From: an uncultured Bacteroidota bacterium
Lineage (GTDB): Bacteria; Bacteroidota; Bacteroidia; Bacteroidales; P3
Direction of reading: 5' to 3'
DNA: 64,000 nucleotides
Assembly (NCBI GenBank): GCA_902777005.1
Contig: CACYSB010000002.1
Location: forward strand, 62,001-126,000
Both the position numbers and the translations under genes were made by a program. Below the pieces are notes generated by a model, which ran no database searches, had not been told where the DNA came from, and saw only the letters and a list, made by a program, of their open reading frames with translations. This document shows positions 8,208 through 63,826 of the stretch, one piece after another. How positions within the stretch are numbered: the stretch's first letter is position 1; the number at the start of each line of letters is the position of its first letter.

Positions 8208-8308
8208 GTCCGTATCCGCTCTGTAACCCCTCCGTCCCTCCTCCGACAAAAAACCGTTAAACAACCGGTGAACAGTCGGAGCGGGTACGGAGCGGGTACG
8301 GAGTGGAC
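8208..8308. repeat. GC-rich intergenic palindrome, copy 1
   Basis: An imperfect 101-bp palindrome: left arm 8208-8247, loop 8248-8274, right arm 8275-8308. The right arm is a tandem of GTCGGAGCGGG and TACGGAGCGGG units; CTCCGAC and GTCGGAG close the loop, which carries ACCGTTAAACAACCGGT. The same element recurs at 19784, 30261 and 60675. Here it lies in the divergent spacer between the phosphosugar mutase and the secreted protein at 8367. Confidence 0.85.
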
Positions 8309-8366: not shown

Positions 8367-13638
<5,272 letters not shown>

Positions 13639-19783: not shown

Positions 19784-19894
19784 CCTCCGTATCCCCTCCG
19801 TATTTTTGACGGTTGTTTACCGGTTGTTTTACGGTTCAATACCGTAGAACAACCGGTAAACAACCGTAGAACAGTCGGAGCGGGTACGGAGAGG
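19784..19894. repeat. GC-rich intergenic palindrome, copy 2
   Basis: The best-preserved inner hairpin of the family: 27-bp arms at 19809-19835 and 19841-19867 with one mismatch around a TCAAT loop, built from ACGGTTGTT and ACCGGTTGTT units. Outside are the shared CTCCGTA / GTCGGAGCGGG / TACGGAG units. It fills the spacer between the small gene and the Sir2 gene. Confidence 0.85.
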
Positions 19895-30260: not shown

Positions 30261-30364
30261 TACGTATCCGCTCCGTACCCGCTCCGACTGTTCACCGGTT
30301 GTTTACCGGTTGTTCTACGGTATAGAACCGTTGAACAATGGTAGAACAACCGTAGACGAGACGG
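30261..30364. repeat. GC-rich intergenic palindrome, copy 3
   Basis: TACGTATCCGCTCCG, TACCCGCTCCGAC and TGTTCACCGGTTGTTTACC on the left, then an inner hairpin built from GTTCTACGGT / ACCGTTGAAC units. The right outer arm is degenerate. It lies between cysS and the LolE-like gene, just beyond the latter's stop. Confidence 0.8.
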
Positions 30365-30393: not shown

Positions 30394-31617
30394 TTAGCGG
30401 CCGATGGTACCGCGGCGGCCGACGGTGAGGAAGACCGAGGCGCTGCTGATGGCCATGACGAGGATGAATGTGGCGAGGAAGTCGACGCCGCGCATGGCCA
30501 CGGGGAAGGCGCTGACGACGAAGTTGCCGTCGCCCATGCGGATGATGCCGAAGTGCTGCTGCAGGAAGCACACGATGAAGCCCAGCAGCAGCCCCGCCAG
30601 CACGGCGACGCCGCAGATGAGAAGCCCTTCGGTGGCGAAGGCGCGGCGCACCTGCCGCACGGTCATGCCCATGCTGCGCAGGATGAAGATGTCGCGGCGC
30701 TTGTTGATGATGAGCAGCGAGAGCGAGGCCACAAGGCTGAGGGTGGAGATGAGCACTATGAGCGAGAGGATGAGGTAGATGCCGAGGCGCTCGGTGCGGA
30801 ATATCTTGAAGTAGAGGGGCTGCTGGTCGTAGCGGTCTTTGACGGTGAGTGATGAGTGATGAGTGATGAATGATGAACGGAGTGTTTGCTTGACTTTGGC
30901 GGGGTCGGCGCCGGGGCGCAGCTTGATGGCGAGGGCTGTTACCTCGTCGGGGGCATAGTCCATAAGCTGTCGCACGAAGTCGATGTGCGTCACCACAAAG
31001 CGGCGGTCGATGTCCTGCTGGATGAAGAAGGAGGCCACGGGGTAGGCGTAGCCTATGTTGAAGGCCTGGTCCATGGTGAGGCCCATGGCCGTGGTGCCGC
31101 GCCTGGGTATGTGCACCGCCGCGGGGCGGTTGGAGAGGAGGTTCATGCCGAGGCTGTAGAATACCTCGCCGCCCACAATGAGAGCCGGGGCGTCGGCGAG
31201 GGTCAGCTGGTAGGCGCCGTTGTGAATCATGGTGTCGAGGCCGCTGATGGCGCGGTAGTTGGCGTCGACGCCGCGGAGGGTGACGATGGCCTGGCGGTCG
31301 CCGTAGGTGAGCCAGGCTGTCTCGGCGGCGATTTGTGCCACTTGCTCCACGCCATCGGCTTGGCAGAGGGCGCGGTAGTCGATGTCGGAGGTGCGGAAGG
31401 TCTTGCCTTGGGCGGGCTCGACGATGAGTTCCGGGTCGAAGGTGCCGAAGAGGCCGCGCGTGATTTCGCCGATGCCGTTGTAGACGGAGAGCACGACGAT
31501 GAGGGCTGCGGTGCTCACCAACAGGCCTATGAGCGATACCCAAGAGATGACGTTGACCACCGACTTCTGGCGGTGGGCGAAGAGGTAGCGGACGGCGATG
31601 AGCTGTTCGAGCCGCAC
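30394..31617 (-). CDS. LolE/FtsX-like ABC transporter permease
   Basis: A 407-residue permease: N-terminal amphipathic segment (MRLEQLIAVRYLFAHRQKSVVNVISW), first membrane helix (about 24-48), a large periplasmic MacB_PCD domain (about 50-275), then three C-terminal helices (IYLILSLIVLISTLSLVASLSLL, the GLLICGVAVLAGLLLGFIV region, and LATFILVMAISSASVFL). This topology fits LolC/E lipoprotein-releasing permeases; the ATPase LolD is not adjacent. An in-frame heptamer island (30845-30876) replaces the end of the periplasmic domain with SSFITHHSSL. RbfA precedes it by 4 bp. Confidence 0.88.
   Translation of the reverse strand: MRLEQLIAVRYLFAHRQKSVVNVISWVSLIGLLVSTAALIVVLSVYNGIGEITRGLFGTFDPELIVEPAQGKTFRTSDIDYRALCQADGVEQVAQIAAETAWLTYGDRQAIVTLRGVDANYRAISGLDTMIHNGAYQLTLADAPALIVGGEVFYSLGMNLLSNRPAAVHIPRRGTTAMGLTMDQAFNIGYAYPVASFFIQQDIDRRFVVTHIDFVRQLMDYAPDEVTALAIKLRPGADPAKVKQTLRSSFITHHSSLTVKDRYDQQPLYFKIFRTERLGIYLILSLIVLISTLSLVASLSLLIINKRRDIFILRSMGMTVRQVRRAFATEGLLICGVAVLAGLLLGFIVCFLQQHFGIIRMGDGNFVVSAFPVAMRGVDFLATFILVMAISSASVFLTVGRRGTIGR
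30845..30876 (-). repeat. Heptamer repeat island inside the LolE-like gene
   Basis: Plus strand GTGA followed by three GTGATGA and one ATGATGA, a 7-bp tandem array. On the coding strand it is read in frame as SSFITHHSSL. The coding strand shares TTCATCATTCATCACT with the island in the SpoU gene at 61817. Confidence 0.8.
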
Positions 31618-58302: not shown

Positions 58303-59421
58303 TTATTTCTTGTCTATCAGTTTCTTCAGCTCTATGTCGCTGCTGAAGCGGAAGACCATGTCTTCGTGCTGGCGGCGGCATATCATGAGGGTGTCGGCGC
58401 CGGCGGCCACTATGTAGCCGTCGAGGCCTTCGAGGATGACGTTCTTGCCTTCCGACACCAGCACCAGGTTGTTGTGGCTGTCGTAGGTGAGGGCGTTGCC
58501 GCTTACCACGGCGTTGCCGTTCTGGTCGTGGCGGTAGACGTCGTAGAGCGAGTCCCACGTCTCCACGTCGCTCCAGGCGAAGCTGGCCGCAAGCACATGC
58601 ACGTTGTCGGCCTTCTCCATGATGCCATTGTCGACGCTGACGGCCTCGCAATGCGAGTAGACGCGCTCCAGTTCCTCCCACGGCGTGGTGAGGCCGAGGG
58701 CGAAGAAGGCGTCGGCCATTAGCGGCAGGTGTTTCTTGTAGGCTTCGCGCAGCACCGGCAGCTGCCACACGAGGATACCGGCATTCCAGAAGAACTCGCC
58801 GCTGGCAATGAACTGGCGGGCCATCTCCACCGGCGGCTTCTCAGTGAAGGTTATCACCTTGTGCAGGTTCTCTGCTCTGGGCAGCGAAGGCTCGTCGTTG
58901 AACTGTATGTATCCGTAGCTGGTGTCGGGCCGTGTGGGCTGTGCGCCGAGGGTGATAATCCATTCGTTCTCTGCTACCGTCTGCACGGCCTGCTCAATGT
59001 CGGCCTTGAACTTCTCGCGGTGGAATATGGCGTGGTCCGAAGGCGAGACGATGAGCGTCGCCTCGGGGTCTATCTGGCTGATGACAGCTGCCGCATAGGC
59101 TATGCAGGGGGCTGTGTTGCGGCGCAGCGGCTCGGCGAGCACCTGGTAGGGCAGCAGGTCGGGCAGCTGCTCGCGTACGCGGTCGGCATACTGTTTGCCG
59201 GTGACGATGACGATGTTCTGCCGCGGGCATATCTGAGCGTAGCGCTCAAAGGTGAGCTGCAGCATGGAGCGCCCCACGCCGGTGACGTCGATAAACTGCT
59301 TGGGGTTGTCCGTGCGGCTCACGGGCCAGAAGCGGCTACCAAGTCCGCCGGCCATGATGACGCACCATATATGCTTTGTTGATACGTTGATATGTTGATA
59401 CGTTGATACGTTCTCGCTCAT
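58303..59421 (-). CDS. manC: Mannose-1-phosphate guanylyltransferase
   Basis: A 372-residue nucleotidyltransferase. Signature CVIMAGGLGSRFWPVSRTDNPKQFID; ETLIVSPSDHAIFHREKF-type DH metal site (IVSPSDHAI); sugar-binding TFTEKPPVE. It makes GDP-mannose, a donor for surface glycans and GDP-fucose; no separate PMI domain. Its first 15 residues (MSENVSTYQHINVST) come from the left repeat of the four-helix cassette, and its ATG overlaps the cassette gene's stop (ATGA). The family start is normally a few residues before CVIMAGG. Confidence 0.92.
   Translation of the reverse strand: MSENVSTYQHINVSTKHIWCVIMAGGLGSRFWPVSRTDNPKQFIDVTGVGRSMLQLTFERYAQICPRQNIVIVTGKQYADRVREQLPDLLPYQVLAEPLRRNTAPCIAYAAAVISQIDPEATLIVSPSDHAIFHREKFKADIEQAVQTVAENEWIITLGAQPTRPDTSYGYIQFNDEPSLPRAENLHKVITFTEKPPVEMARQFIASGEFFWNAGILVWQLPVLREAYKKHLPLMADAFFALGLTTPWEELERVYSHCEAVSVDNGIMEKADNVHVLAASFAWSDVETWDSLYDVYRHDQNGNAVVSGNALTYDSHNNLVLVSEGKNVILEGLDGYIVAAGADTLMICRRQHEDMVFRFSSDIELKKLIDKK
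59378..59412. repeat. Left tandem-repeat arm of cassette 1
   Basis: Four 8-bp units: GTTGATAC (59378), GTTGATAT (59386), GTTGATAC (59394), GTTGATAC (59402), plus GTT. It is in inverted orientation to the array at 59783-59809 and is translated in manC. Confidence 0.85.
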
Positions 59422-59768
59422 TTCCGACTGTTCAAATAGTTAATCAGTTTGTTTATTGACCCTGTAATGTTCTTGCATTGTTCTATTGCCTCTAATGCCG
59501 TTTGGTGTTCACAATAATTCAGTTCGTCAGCCAGATAAAGCATACTTCTGACCTCGGCACAACTCCCTTTCGCAATGTTGAGAAAGTGAATATAGTTAGT
59601 AGTGGTTCCCGATTCGCTTCCTTCGGCGACATTGTTCATTATTGACACGGCAGCCCGTTGGATTTGGTCTTTAAAGCCATAGTCATGACCATACTGGAAG
59701 TCCTTGTATATGGTCATCGTCAGGTTTTTTGCCTTACGCCAGATGTCTAAGTCCTCGAAAAAAGCCAT
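59418..59768 (-). CDS. Four-helix-bundle protein (S23 / intervening-sequence protein family)
   Basis: A 116-residue helical protein of the TIGR02436/S23 family: FEDLDIWRKAKNLTMTIYKDF, then FKDQIQRAAVSIMNNVAEGSE and FLNIAKGSCAEVRSMLYLADELNY, the conserved core. Relatives are encoded inside intervening sequences of 23S rRNA genes and as the accessory protein Avd of diversity-generating retroelements; they form pentameric barrels that bind nucleic acid. No rRNA gene or reverse transcriptase is near. Flanked by inverted 8-bp tandem arrays. About one third identical by eye to the second copy at 62338. Confidence 0.88.
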   Translation of the reverse strand: MAFFEDLDIWRKAKNLTMTIYKDFQYGHDYGFKDQIQRAAVSIMNNVAEGSESGTTTNYIHFLNIAKGSCAEVRSMLYLADELNYCEHQTALEAIEQCKNITGSINKLINYLNSRK

Positions 59769-59782
59769 AAAACACTATTAAC

Positions 59783-59809
59783 TTATCAACATATCAACAT
59801 ATCAACATT
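59783..59809. repeat. Right tandem-repeat arm of cassette 1
   Basis: TTATCAAC (59783), ATATCAAC (59791), ATATCAAC (59799) and ATT: the reverse complement of GTTGATAW units. It ends at the thyA stop codon. Confidence 0.85.
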
Positions 59810-60602
59810 AAACAGAAACCTCCCCTTTAATGTGCGGATGCGGGTCATAGCCTTCCAGCTTGAAGTCCTCGTAGTGGAAGCCGAAGATGTCCTTCACCTC
59901 GGGGTTGATTCTCATCGTCGGCAGTTTGCGCGGCTCGCGGCTGAGCTGCAGATGCACCTGGTCGATATGGTTCTTGTAGATATGTGCGTCGCCGAAGGTG
60001 TGCACAAAGTCACCCGGCTCCAGGCCGCATACCTGCGCCATCATCATGGTGAGCAGGGCATAGCTGGCTATGTTGAACGGCACGCCGAGGAAGATGTCGG
60101 CCGAGCGCTGGTAGAGCTGGCAGCTGAGTTTGCCGCCACTGACGTAGAACTGGAACAGGCAGTGGCAGGGCGGCAGGGCCATGTCCTGTATCTCGGCGGG
60201 GTTCCATGCCGTCACCATCAGGCGGCGGCTGTAGGGGTTCTCCTTTATCTCGCGCACCACGTTGGCTATCTGGTCTATGGTGCCGCCGTGGCCGTCGGGC
60301 CACGAGCGCCACTGGCTGCCGTAGACGGGGCCCAGGTCGCCGTTCTCGTCGGCCCATTCGTCCCAGATGCTCACGCCGTTGTCCTTGAGGTACTTTATAT
60401 TGGTGTCGCCGCGCAGGAACCACAGCAGCTCGTGGATGATGGAGCGCAGGTGCAGCTTCTTGGTGGTCAGGCAGGGAAATCCCTCGCCGAGGTCGAAGCG
60501 CATCTGGTAGCCGAACACACCCACCGTGCCGGTGCCGGTGCGGTCCTGGCGCTCGGTGCCGTGGTCGAGCACATATTGTAGAAGGTCAAGATACTGTTTC
60601 AT
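59808..60602 (-). CDS. thyA: Thymidylate synthase
   Basis: A 264-residue ThyA, same numbering as E. coli. Nucleophile C146 in [12 protein letters not shown]; phosphate-binding R in DRTGTGT and [11 protein letters not shown]; folate-site YDPHPHIK near the end. It methylates dUMP to dTMP using methylene-tetrahydrofolate. The usual folA partner does not follow; instead the four-helix cassette abuts its stop codon. Confidence 0.97.
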
Positions 60603-60674
60603 ACTTTATTTTGTTTATAACGCCGAAGTGCAAAAAATGTTGCGTACATAATATAAAAATTTGATTTTGCACCG

Positions 60675-60778
60675 TAGCCCCTCCGCACCCGCTCCGTACC
60701 CGCTCCGACTGTTCACCGGTTGTTTAACGGTTTTTTGTCGGAGGGAGTACGGAGGGGGTACGGAGCGGGTGCGGAGGG
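60675..60778. repeat. GC-rich intergenic palindrome, copy 4
   Basis: Arms at 60678-60709 and 60737-60777 with loop TGTTCACCGGTTGTTTAACGG then TTTTTT. It is close to the reverse complement of copy 1, including the loop. It occupies the divergent spacer between thyA and the sigma factor gene. Confidence 0.85.
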
Positions 60779-60833
60779 AAAGGGGATGCCGACGGCGGAA
60801 AACAAACCATAAAAATTAAAAAAAAAACACTTT

Positions 60834-61538: not shown

Positions 61539-62321
61539 GTGATAAGCAAAAATAAACTCAAGGACTTGGCCGCCTACCGACAGCAGCGCCGCTGCGACGA
61601 GGAGGCGGTCTTTGTTGTCGAAGGGCCCAAGCTCTGCGGCGAGGCACTGGTTTCTGGGTTTACCGTCAGGGTGGTGTGCGCCACTGCGGAGTGGCTGTCG
61701 GCCAATGCCATAGATGCTGTGCCCGAGTGCTACGAAGTGTCGCAGGCCGAGCTGGAGCGTCTCTCCAACATGCGCACCCCCAACCAGGTGTGGATGCTCC
61801 TCGAACGCCCCGACAATTCATCATTCATCACTAATCATTCATCATTGGTCCTGGCCCTCGACAGGATACAGGACCCCGGCAACCTCGGCACCATGATGCG
61901 CACGGCCGATTGGTACGGCATCAGGCATATCGTCTGTTCACCCGACACGGTTTCTTGCTACAACCCCAAGGTGGTGCAGGCCTCCATGGGTGCCGTGTTC
62001 CGCACACGGGTGGAGTATGTCGACCTGCCCCAATGGCTTGCTGCCTGCGGCATGCCGGTCTTTGGCGCCTCCCTGCAAGGCGAGCCTCTTGCACATTCAG
62101 ACATAGGCGCATCAGTGCATTCCCCCGCCGTGCTCCTCATTGGCAACGAAAGCCGCGGCATCGGACCCGAGGCCATGGAGCATGTCACACATCCTGTGCT
62201 CATCCCCAACATCGGCGGCACTGCCGAGAGCCTCAACGCCTCGGTGGCCGCAGGCATACTTATACATCTTCTATGTAGTGCAAGGGAGTGCAGGGGAGTG
62301 CAGGGGAGTGCAAGACAATAG
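61539..62321 (+). CDS. SpoU-family RNA methyltransferase (RlmB/TrmH-like)
   Basis: A 260-residue SPOUT methyltransferase starting at GTG directly after the sigma-factor stop. N-terminal substrate-binding domain (FVVEGPKLCGEAL), then motif 1 (LDRIQDPGNLGTMMRTADWYG), motif 2 (LLIGNESRGI) and motif 3 (TAESLNASVAAGILIHLL). It 2'-O-methylates a ribose in rRNA or tRNA. An island of 7-bp repeats (61817) adds SSFITNHSSL just ahead of motif 1, and the last 15 residues (CSARECRGVQGSARQ) come from the left arm of cassette 2. Confidence 0.9.
   Translation: MISKNKLKDLAAYRQQRRCDEEAVFVVEGPKLCGEALVSGFTVRVVCATAEWLSANAIDAVPECYEVSQAELERLSNMRTPNQVWMLLERPDNSSFITNHSSLVLALDRIQDPGNLGTMMRTADWYGIRHIVCSPDTVSCYNPKVVQASMGAVFRTRVEYVDLPQWLAACGMPVFGASLQGEPLAHSDIGASVHSPAVLLIGNESRGIGPEAMEHVTHPVLIPNIGGTAESLNASVAAGILIHLLCSARECRGVQGSARQ
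61817..61846 (+). repeat. Heptamer repeat island inside the SpoU gene
   Basis: TTCATCA, TTCATCA, CTAATCA, TTCATCA, TT. In frame. Its first 16 bases match the coding strand of the island in the LolE-like gene. Confidence 0.8.
62275..62316. repeat. Left tandem-repeat arm of cassette 2
   Basis: Four 10-bp units, GTAGTGCAAG, GGAGTGCAGG (twice) and GGAGTGCAAG, plus AC. Translated as the C-terminus of the SpoU protein. Confidence 0.88.
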
Positions 62322-62337
62322 TAAATATGGCAGTAAA

Positions 62338-62712
62338 ATGACACAAAGTTTTGAAGAGGTAATCGCTTGGCAAAGGGCTCACGCTTTTGTTCTATCAGTA
62401 TACAAAATAACAAAAGGATTCCCTGACGATGAAAAGTTTGGACTGACGTCGCAATTCCGTCGTGCAGCGGTGTCTATAGAAGCAAATATTGCAGAAGGAT
62501 ATAGAAAAATTGGAAAGTCTGATAAACTACGCTTTTTCAATATTGCAGAAGGTAGCCTTTCAGAATGCAAGGACTATATAATTTTGTCAAGAGATTTGGA
62601 GTATATAACACCTGAACAGTACAAAGAGTTATGGAATAGTATTGAAGAAGCTAGCCGTTATTTAATCAAATACAGCAACGGGGTAGTAAATAACGCAGGA
62701 ATTAAAGACTGA
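62338..62712 (+). CDS. Four-helix-bundle protein (S23 / intervening-sequence protein family)
   Basis: A 124-residue protein starting at the ATG at 62338, just inside the left repeat arm; the longer open frame to 62140 only shadows the SpoU gene. Core: SFEEVIAWQRAHAFVLSVY, LTSQFRRAAVSIEANIAEGYRK and LRFFNIAEGSLSECKDYIILSRDLEY, the family signature. Strongly AT-rich with AGA/AAA/ATA codons between GC-rich neighbours, a sign of transfer. Possible role in nucleic-acid binding by analogy with Avd and rRNA intervening-sequence proteins. Confidence 0.9.
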   Translation: MTQSFEEVIAWQRAHAFVLSVYKITKGFPDDEKFGLTSQFRRAAVSIEANIAEGYRKIGKSDKLRFFNIAEGSLSECKDYIILSRDLEYITPEQYKELWNSIEEASRYLIKYSNGVVNNAGIKD

Positions 62713-62722
62713 AAATGCATTT

Positions 62723-62764
62723 GTCTTGCACTCCTCTGCACTACATTGCACTCCTTAGCACTAC
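62723..62764. repeat. Right tandem-repeat arm of cassette 2
   Basis: GT then four 10-bp units, CTTGCACTCC (62725), TCTGCACTAC, ATTGCACTCC and TTAGCACTAC; the reverse complement of the left arm's unit. Confidence 0.88.
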
Positions 62765-62773
62765 TAAAGAAAT

Positions 62774-63826
62774 ATGGAACAATTGGAATACCAGGAAGGA
62801 AGGACAGAGATAAGCCACATGGGCAAGGTGGCGCTGATTGAGCGCCTTACCGCTGACCTTGAGCAGCGCAACGCCTCCACCGTCATGGGTGTGGGCGACG
62901 ACTGCGCCGTGATAGAGGGCAGCCCCCTGACGCTCGTCAACACCCAGACCCTCGTCGAGGGCGTCAACTTCGACATGATGTACACGCCCCTCAAGCACCT
63001 CGGCTACAAGGCTGTGGCCGTGGCGCTGAGCAACATTGCCGCCATGAACGGCACGCCGCGCCAGGTGCTGGTGAGCGTGGCCGTGAGCAACCGCTACTCC
63101 GTCGAGGCTCTCGACGAGCTCTACACCGGTGTGCGCCTCTGCTGCGAGCGCTACGACGTGGACCTCGTGGGTGGCGAGACCGGCACTTCGCGTGCCGGCA
63201 TGGTGCTCACAGTCACCGCTATCGGCGGCGTGGAGCCCGGCAAGATAACCTACCGCCGTGGCGCCGGCCTGCACGACCTGGTGTGCTGCAGCGGCGACCT
63301 CGGCAGCGCCTATGCGGGCCTACTGGTCCTCGAGCGCGAGAAGGTCACATACCAGGCCAACCCCGACTTCCAGCCCGACCTGGAGGGCTATGACTACGTC
63401 CTCGAGCGTTTCCTGAAACCCGAGCCCCGCCTCGACATCGTGAAGCTGCTGGCCGAAAAGGGCGTGGTGCCCACCTCGATGACCGACATCAGCAAGGGCC
63501 TCGCCGACAGCGTGCTGCACCTCTGCCATGCTTCGCACTGCGGCTGCGAGGTGTACGAAGAGCATCTGCCCATCGACTACCAGACTTCGCGCGTCTGCTC
63601 CGAGATGAGCAAGAATATGCTGCCCGTCAGCTGCGCCCTCAACGGCGGTGAGGATTACGAGCTGCTTTTCACCGTCAGCCAGAAGGACTATGACAAGATT
63701 AAGGACATGCAGGAGATACATATCATAGGCCACGTCACCGAGGAGGGTATGCCCGCCGTCATGGTGACGCCGCAGAACACCACTATCACACTGCGTGCAC
63801 AGGCTTTCCAAGGTGTTGACGAATGA
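62774..63826 (+). CDS. thiL: Thiamine-monophosphate kinase
   Basis: A 350-residue AIR-synthase-fold kinase: [12 protein letters not shown] (metal/ATP Asp pair), [84 protein letters not shown] and [12 protein letters not shown]. It phosphorylates thiamine phosphate to thiamine diphosphate. Its ATG lies 9 bp past cassette 2, whose arm may have replaced its native upstream region. Overlaps pcm by ATGA. Confidence 0.94.

Follow-up and report, generated by a model that had tools for sequence, protein, structure and literature searches.

For some three decades S23 has remained an orphan protein, and annotations often call it ribosomal or CRISPR-associated. In the intervening sequences (IVSs) of 23S rRNA, as in Leptospira and Coxiella, an S23p open reading frame (ORF) lies in sense orientation between stem-forming terminal inverted repeats. 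The Coxiella S23 element resides in the 23S rRNA, its terminal inverted repeats are cut by RNase III, and tandem GACAGAT/GACAGAA heptamers, whose number varies among strains, lie just 5' of the ORF (PMC4990558). The S23 protein of Xanthomonas is a pentamer (PMC4990558). Here we describe an S23 gene bracketed by inverted tandem arrays, which together occupy positions 62275-62764 of a 64,000-nucleotide stretch of DNA (the window) from an uncultured Bacteroidales bacterium (genome G000, 2.3 Mb in 32 contigs) and separate a spoU-family gene from thiL.

Two further kinds of repeat invite comparison. RAYT/REPIN systems share the layout of one gene within inverted repeats, with gene-less inverted pairs and solo copies of the same repeat type dispersed elsewhere. 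However, their gene is an HUH/Y1 transposase (TnpA_REP) and their repeats are hairpins, whereas here no such enzyme is encoded between the arms, the repeats are tandem 6-12-mers and the protein is a four-helix bundle. The lack of a transposase gene also separates the element from insertion sequences and miniature inverted-repeat transposable elements. The other kind comprises the dispersed tandem heptamers of Xanthomonas, Nostoc and Beggiatoaceae and the short tandemly repeated repetitive sequences of cyanobacteria, which at about four units resemble other elements and solo arrays of G000; the spoU-thiL element differs from them in its 10-bp unit. Xanthomonas GGGAATC heptamers are dispersed, prefer four units and form ~70 convergent inverted pairs per genome, and the GGGGA(C/T)T heptamers of Nostoc resemble them, with no tie to mobile elements drawn (PMC4692102). 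TAACTGA heptamers lie near start codons in Beggiatoaceae and were proposed to be translational regulators (PMC4679880). Neither paper draws a link to S23 or to mobile elements, and an S23 origin of these repeats is a prediction of the present work. Our literature search, which left out preprints and most subscription journals, found no paper, apart from that on the Coxiella heptamers, in which S23 is connected with tandem arrays.

An S23 gene between inverted arrays at spoU-thiL

The sole ORF between the arms (62338..62712, forward strand) encodes a four-helix-bundle protein of 124 residues, which matches PF05635 with 127.8 bits (cut-off 33.8, E 2.5e-37) and TIGR02436 with 118.6 bits (cut-off 24, E 1.4e-34); no transposase is found there. 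Solved structures of this family are 2gsc, which comes from Xanthomonas, and 2rld. The left (5') arm at 62275..62318 reads GTAGTGCAAG GGAGTGCAGG GGAGTGCAGG GGAGTGCAAG ACAA, that is, about four copies of GGAGTGCARG followed by an inner GACAA, and the right (3') arm at 62721..62764 is the inverted array with an inner TTGTC and reads TTGTCTTGCACTCCTCTGCACTACATTGCACTCCTTAGCACTAC. Tandem Repeats Finder (TRF) assigned period 10 to both, with 3.8 and 3.7 copies, and a repeat search returned them as a single inverted pair of 44 nt each, 86% complementary and 402 nt apart. An earlier note on this DNA had described an S23-family gene between inverted arrays of a 10-bp repeat, with perfect inverted repeats over the inner 12 bp and the outer 7 bp of the arms. 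Both the gene family and the symmetry were borne out, the outer stretch being GTAGTGC/GCACTAC and the inner one AGTGCAAGACAA/TTGTCTTGCACT.

The pairing of the two arms at 62275-62764 is not due to chance. The inverse of each arm was recovered at 1e-7 by blastn against the own genome, and the inverted-flank score of the element was 60, compared with a maximum of 48 among 663 offset control windows. At the RNA level, the minimum free energy (MFE) fold of the element is predicted at -151 kcal/mol (z -6.4), and the MFE and centroid folds both pair the arms, which is compatible with the suggestion that the arms could pair in RNA.

The unit also stands out from its surroundings. The GC content of the S23 gene is 0.37, while that of the flanking genes is 0.60-0.62, in agreement with the foreign composition claimed before. 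As the same note had read from the letters, the left arm has become the C-terminus of the SpoU-family rRNA methyltransferase (61539..62321, forward strand; PF00588), whose ORF has the arm as its 3' end, and this C-terminal tail is missing in relatives without the element. The right arm stops 9 bp short of thiL, the host gene on the 3' side (62774..63826, forward strand; TIGR01379, 273 bits), which begins with its ATG at 62774.

Of known relatives, the IVS of 23S rRNA comes closest, sharing the S23 gene, its sense orientation and the enclosing inverted repeats. In contrast to the IVS, which sits in rRNA, the element described here lies between protein genes, each of its two arms repeats in tandem a short unit particular to the element, and gene-less derivatives are dispersed. 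The Coxiella heptamer GACAGAA is a rotation of GAAGACA arms that we found in Bacteroidales and Acidobacteria.

Empty sites and a lineage-linked array architecture

Comparison of orthologous junctions showed that gene and repeats are not common to all relatives. In ten of them spoU is joined to thiL with neither gene nor array (G106 at L184, G019, G078, G080, G008, G023, G101, G113, G118 and G079), and among these is the closest relative, G106, whose thiL is 92% identical. The site is filled in G081 (L192) and G062 (L195) by an orthologous element whose arms are of the GGAGTGCAAG type. The L195 element is 80% identical in DNA to an element in a different operon of G036 (L220), both having inner GACAAT/TGTC, and L202 and L226 form another related pair with the same arms at unrelated loci. 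These empty sites, together with the arrays found around other S23 genes, support the earlier view of a discrete inserted unit, and that such a unit has spread is close to certain on the present data.

A second element with the same architecture spans 59378-59808, 3 kb from the spoU-thiL element, and is built on an 8-bp unit. Its S23 gene lies on the reverse strand (59418..59768; PF05635 E 1.4e-31). The 3' arm, a (GTTGATAC)4.4 array in TRF (59378..59412), gives a new N-terminus to the adjoining mannose-1-phosphate guanylyltransferase-like gene (58303-59421, reverse strand), and the 5' arm, a (AACATATC)4.6 array (59771..59808), abuts the stop of a thymidylate-synthase-like gene (59808-60602, reverse strand), both genes being named from sequence only. 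At both sites in the window, the arrays fall at start and stop codons of host genes. The second site is empty in G106, G080, G023, G008 and G078 and filled in G084 and G081, and in these two the unit has changed on both arms, being GTTGATAC in G000, GTTGATAT in G084 and GTTGATAGG in G081.

Arrays of this kind are a general companion of S23 genes. Short tandem arrays enclose nine of the 10 PF05635 genes of G000, and the 6-10-bp unit is particular to each element: 10 bp at spoU-thiL, 8 bp for AGTAGTTC and GTTGATAC, and 6-7 bp for TAGTGGG, AGTGATG, TGATTTC, AATTGAC, AACCTTG and TTAACCT. Most of these pairs are plainly inverted, some arms are short or degenerate, and the near-palindromic AACCTTG unit leaves the arm orientation of its element ambiguous. 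The S23 gene of L014 (G000 C3:49619-49924), with no clear arm pair and a host-like GC of 0.57, is possibly a domesticated copy. Within the genus, the family occurs in 58 of 59 genomes, with up to 18 copies.

We extended the comparison to 116 S23 loci from G000, its genus, Bacteroidota, Ignavibacteria, Acidobacteria, Verrucomicrobiota, Desulfobacterota, Clostridia and Elusimicrobia, aligning the 200 bp upstream of each gene to the reverse complement of the 200 bp downstream and using the 663 offset windows as control. Inverted flanks exceeded the control 99th percentile at 88 of the 116 loci (76%), where about one was expected, and direct-orientation flanks exceeded it at nine. Arrays were present on both sides at 85 loci; the earlier proposal, that other family members be checked for flanking arrays, was thereby answered well beyond the own genome. 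The 258 arrays at S23 loci have periods of 6-12 and, for most periods, a copy-number peak near four (128 have 3.8-5.0 copies), with median lengths of 31, 33, 35 and 38 bp for periods 7, 8, 9 and 10, respectively. Elsewhere in the genome, period-9 and period-12 arrays fall off from two copies upward. Similar flanks were often seen at S23 genes of cyanobacterial and Azospirillum (alphaproteobacterial) plasmids, and S23 genes on viral contigs are often bracketed likewise. Carriage by phages was rejected, as 50,697 phage records gave no S23 match and IMG/VR 12 loci.

The arms follow the protein lineage. In 9,691 pairwise comparisons between elements whose flanks are unrelated, mean array similarity rose from 0.13 below 35% S23 identity to 0.45 at 65-75%, and the Mantel correlation between array and protein (rho 0.43) was reached by none of 300 permutations. 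The likeness holds in gene orientation and hardly in reverse, and 5' arms have G>C in 109 cases and G<C in five. Since array likeness tracks S23 identity at unrelated sites, the arrays travel with the gene and keep a fixed polarity.

Two sets of loci deserve separate mention. At L143, L146 and L149, S23 genes with 80-82% identical DNA lie at unrelated sites on contigs of Elusimicrobia, Bryobacterales and Syntrophaceae, a likeness that suggests transfer between phyla, with contamination of metagenome-assembled genomes as a possible alternative source. At L387 and L393, S23 genes lie within CRISPR operons (cas10-cmr3 and cas6-cas4). S23 genes have been listed in cas loci (PMC3936711); such genes look like insertions into operons, a possible reason for the cas-associated label that they have been given.

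Gene-less pairs and solo arrays

Arrays also occur away from S23 genes. In an 860-kb sample of G000, we counted 76 arrays with periods of 7, 8 and 10 bp that lie >700 bp from any S23 gene, some of them built on the exact units of the genome's own elements, such as the 8-mer GTTGATAC. Genome-wide, TGATGAR arrays gave 24 overlapping pattern matches and the reversed pattern none. Gene-less arrays adjacent within 150 bp were inverted in 32 cases and direct in 10, and the left arm had G>C in all 32 inverted pairs, matching the 5' arms of S23 elements. Several such pairs are made of the exact S23 unit of their own genome, namely TAGTGGG-16 bp-CTACCCA in G012, TGATGAG and GAATTGA in G000, TTATAGG and GGTTATG in G002, and AGGTGAA in G036.

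Three solo arrays of 4.4 copies in the window illustrate their placement. (AATTGAG)4.4 at 10148..10178 lies in frame in a coding sequence and belongs to the unit family of an S23 element (L013), (TGAGTGA)4.4 at 30846..30876 apparently lies within a coding region and shares its unit with another (L011), and (ATTCATC)4.4 at 61816..61846, detected by TRF, is in frame in the SpoU linker. This linker (loci L016-L190) is a hot spot, where relatives have arrays of unrelated units or none at the exact place, and the length differences are multiples of three. In 100 kb of a Nostoc plasmid no solo array of the S23 unit was found, a result of little weight, and GGGAATC arrays occurred on three viral contigs, none of which carries S23.

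Other repeats of these genomes were recorded alongside. Very long 7-bp arrays of the GGTTACA and AGGGATG families in G000 (L268:15688-15975, L271:3409-3592 and L276:1656-1828) reach 25-41 copies, far above the four-unit mode. Intergenic hairpin-like repeats with an 11-bp unit (TACCCGCTCCG / CGGAGCGGGTA, with TGTTCAACGGT between) lie at 8248-8303, 19805-19873, 30263-30356 and 60672-60779 of the window; their polarity is opposite to that of S23 arms and they form a separate repeat family. A palindromic repeat of ~115 bp at L283:16323-16442 (G000 C6) recurs dozens of times, on either strand, in the genomes of G106 and G019.

A proposed minimal mobile unit and its alternatives

We consider it rather probable that the element is a minimal mobile unit, consisting of an S23 gene and its inverted arrays, accompanied by gene-less satellites in a RAYT/REPIN-like organisation and lacking a transposase. 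S23 probably recognises the arms, for which their lineage-specific unit and polarity are indirect evidence, and it is plausible, at about even chances, that it moves gene-less arrays in trans. In the mechanism we propose, an S23 pentamer would recognise the arrays, whose ~4.4 copies contain at most five unit cores, a number that would match the five protomers, with the repeats wrapped around the ring in a way comparable to TRAP. The pentamer would join both arms, on DNA or on its own transcript, and this bridging would help its own element to spread and, acting in trans, would do the same for gene-less mini-elements and solo arrays. Because S23 has, to our knowledge, no known catalytic, nuclease or recombinase domain, strand breakage and joining would be left to host enzymes. 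The element would rely on read-through transcription of the host operon, hence the bias toward sense orientation. The IVS in 23S rRNA would be the same sort of element, excised by RNase III.

Several observations weigh against this reading. The lack of a catalytic domain in S23 is one of them. No transposition event was observed. The spoU-thiL element is present in the distant G081 and G062 and absent in the near G106, a pattern that fits gain, loss or import by recombination. A clean target-site duplication was not found at the two sites compared with empty sites: a possible TATG at the start codon is the only candidate, and the second element took the place of ~20 bp of the empty site. The two arms share their unit, but its variants are not kept in register between them (mean z 0.22, p 0.07), so that neither copying of one arm as the exact inverse of the other nor strict covariation along a stem finds support; shuffling the unit order barely altered the fit, and we rejected the idea of arms as register-kept exact inverted copies. 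Genomes with a higher density of S23 genes also have a higher density of solo arrays (rho 0.68, p 1e-4, 26 genomes), yet this correlation ignores phylogeny and draws on samples of 38-860 kb, mostly 40 kb. In G000 and G036 there is a clear match between solo units and the S23 arms of the same genome; G002 gives no clear match, its common AT-rich units obscuring the comparison.

A different account sees a domesticated post-transcriptional module, in which S23 would bind its own intercistronic mRNA at the paired arms, tuning RNase III processing or translation of the host operon, with spread reduced to rare recombination. S23 genes in collinear gene pairs are sense in 94 cases and antisense in five (p 2e-22), and the dN/dS of S23 is 0.02-0.12, low values which indicate that strong purifying selection keeps the protein. 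Both facts suit such a module, as do the predicted pairing of the arms in RNA and the position of arrays at start and stop codons; in Beggiatoaceae, heptamers near start codons have been proposed to regulate translation (PMC4679880). Nevertheless, we find this account unlikely in view of the patchy presence, the empty sites in the closest relative and the foreign GC; it also sits poorly with one element family at unrelated loci in unrelated host operons, and with gene-less pairs and solo arrays, some of them within coding regions. Sense orientation would also suit an RNA route, as in a retroelement in which S23 acts like the accessory protein Avd of diversity-generating retroelements (DGRs) with a reverse transcriptase (RT) supplied in trans. 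S23 does share a fold family with Avd, by a weak profile match (bAvd 1.2e-4, DivGenRetAVD 2.2e-8), although the Avd equivalog score of 34.3 is under the cut-off of 80. A DGR needs an RT, whereas G000 has no RVT_1 match, S23 copies and RT counts are uncorrelated over the 59 genomes (rho -0.01), and G002 and G006, with 18 and 13 S23 genes, are RT-free; we therefore rejected RT dependence and consider it very improbable.

The chances are slightly poorer still that the arrays arose by ordinary slippage and that S23 genes inserted into them by accident. Similar solo arrays do exist without S23, and copy number is variable in places, up to 41. Slippage, however, fits neither the inverted layout, the lineage-specific unit and polarity at unrelated sites, the copy-number peak of ~4 nor the uniform polarity of the 32 gene-less inverted pairs, and the empty sites are array-free at both sites examined. 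Least probable of all is mobilisation of the arms by a Y1 (RAYT/IS200-like) transposase in trans, with S23 as a passenger. The RAYT/REPIN-like organisation would agree with it, and S23 and Y1 counts are weakly correlated (rho 0.29, p 0.025), but G006, G008, G037 and G057 have many S23 genes or arrays and no Y1 match, the arrays are not hairpins, and the arms track the S23 lineage. Given the weak correlation and these counter-examples, Y1 in trans was rejected.

Returning to the minimal mobile unit, a broader version can be put forward tentatively, at somewhat less than even confidence: S23-array elements would form a separate class of bacterial mobile DNA, present across many phyla, whose members consist of nothing but a catalysis-free ring protein and its arms and also spread gene-less satellites. 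The heptamer repeats long left unexplained in cyanobacteria, Xanthomonas, Beggiatoaceae and Bacteroidota would then belong, together with the IVSs of rRNA, to one system. One consequence holds for annotation in these genomes, since some host proteins have N-termini, C-termini or linkers made of element arm sequence, which calls for caution. S23 is tied here to a precise DNA partner, its tandem-array arms. If the proposal is true, the orphan protein would gain a function, array recognition, which a binding assay can test. It would also explain the presence of S23 within unrelated operons, cas operons included, and would provide an origin for the scattered short tandem repeats that published surveys left without a mechanism.
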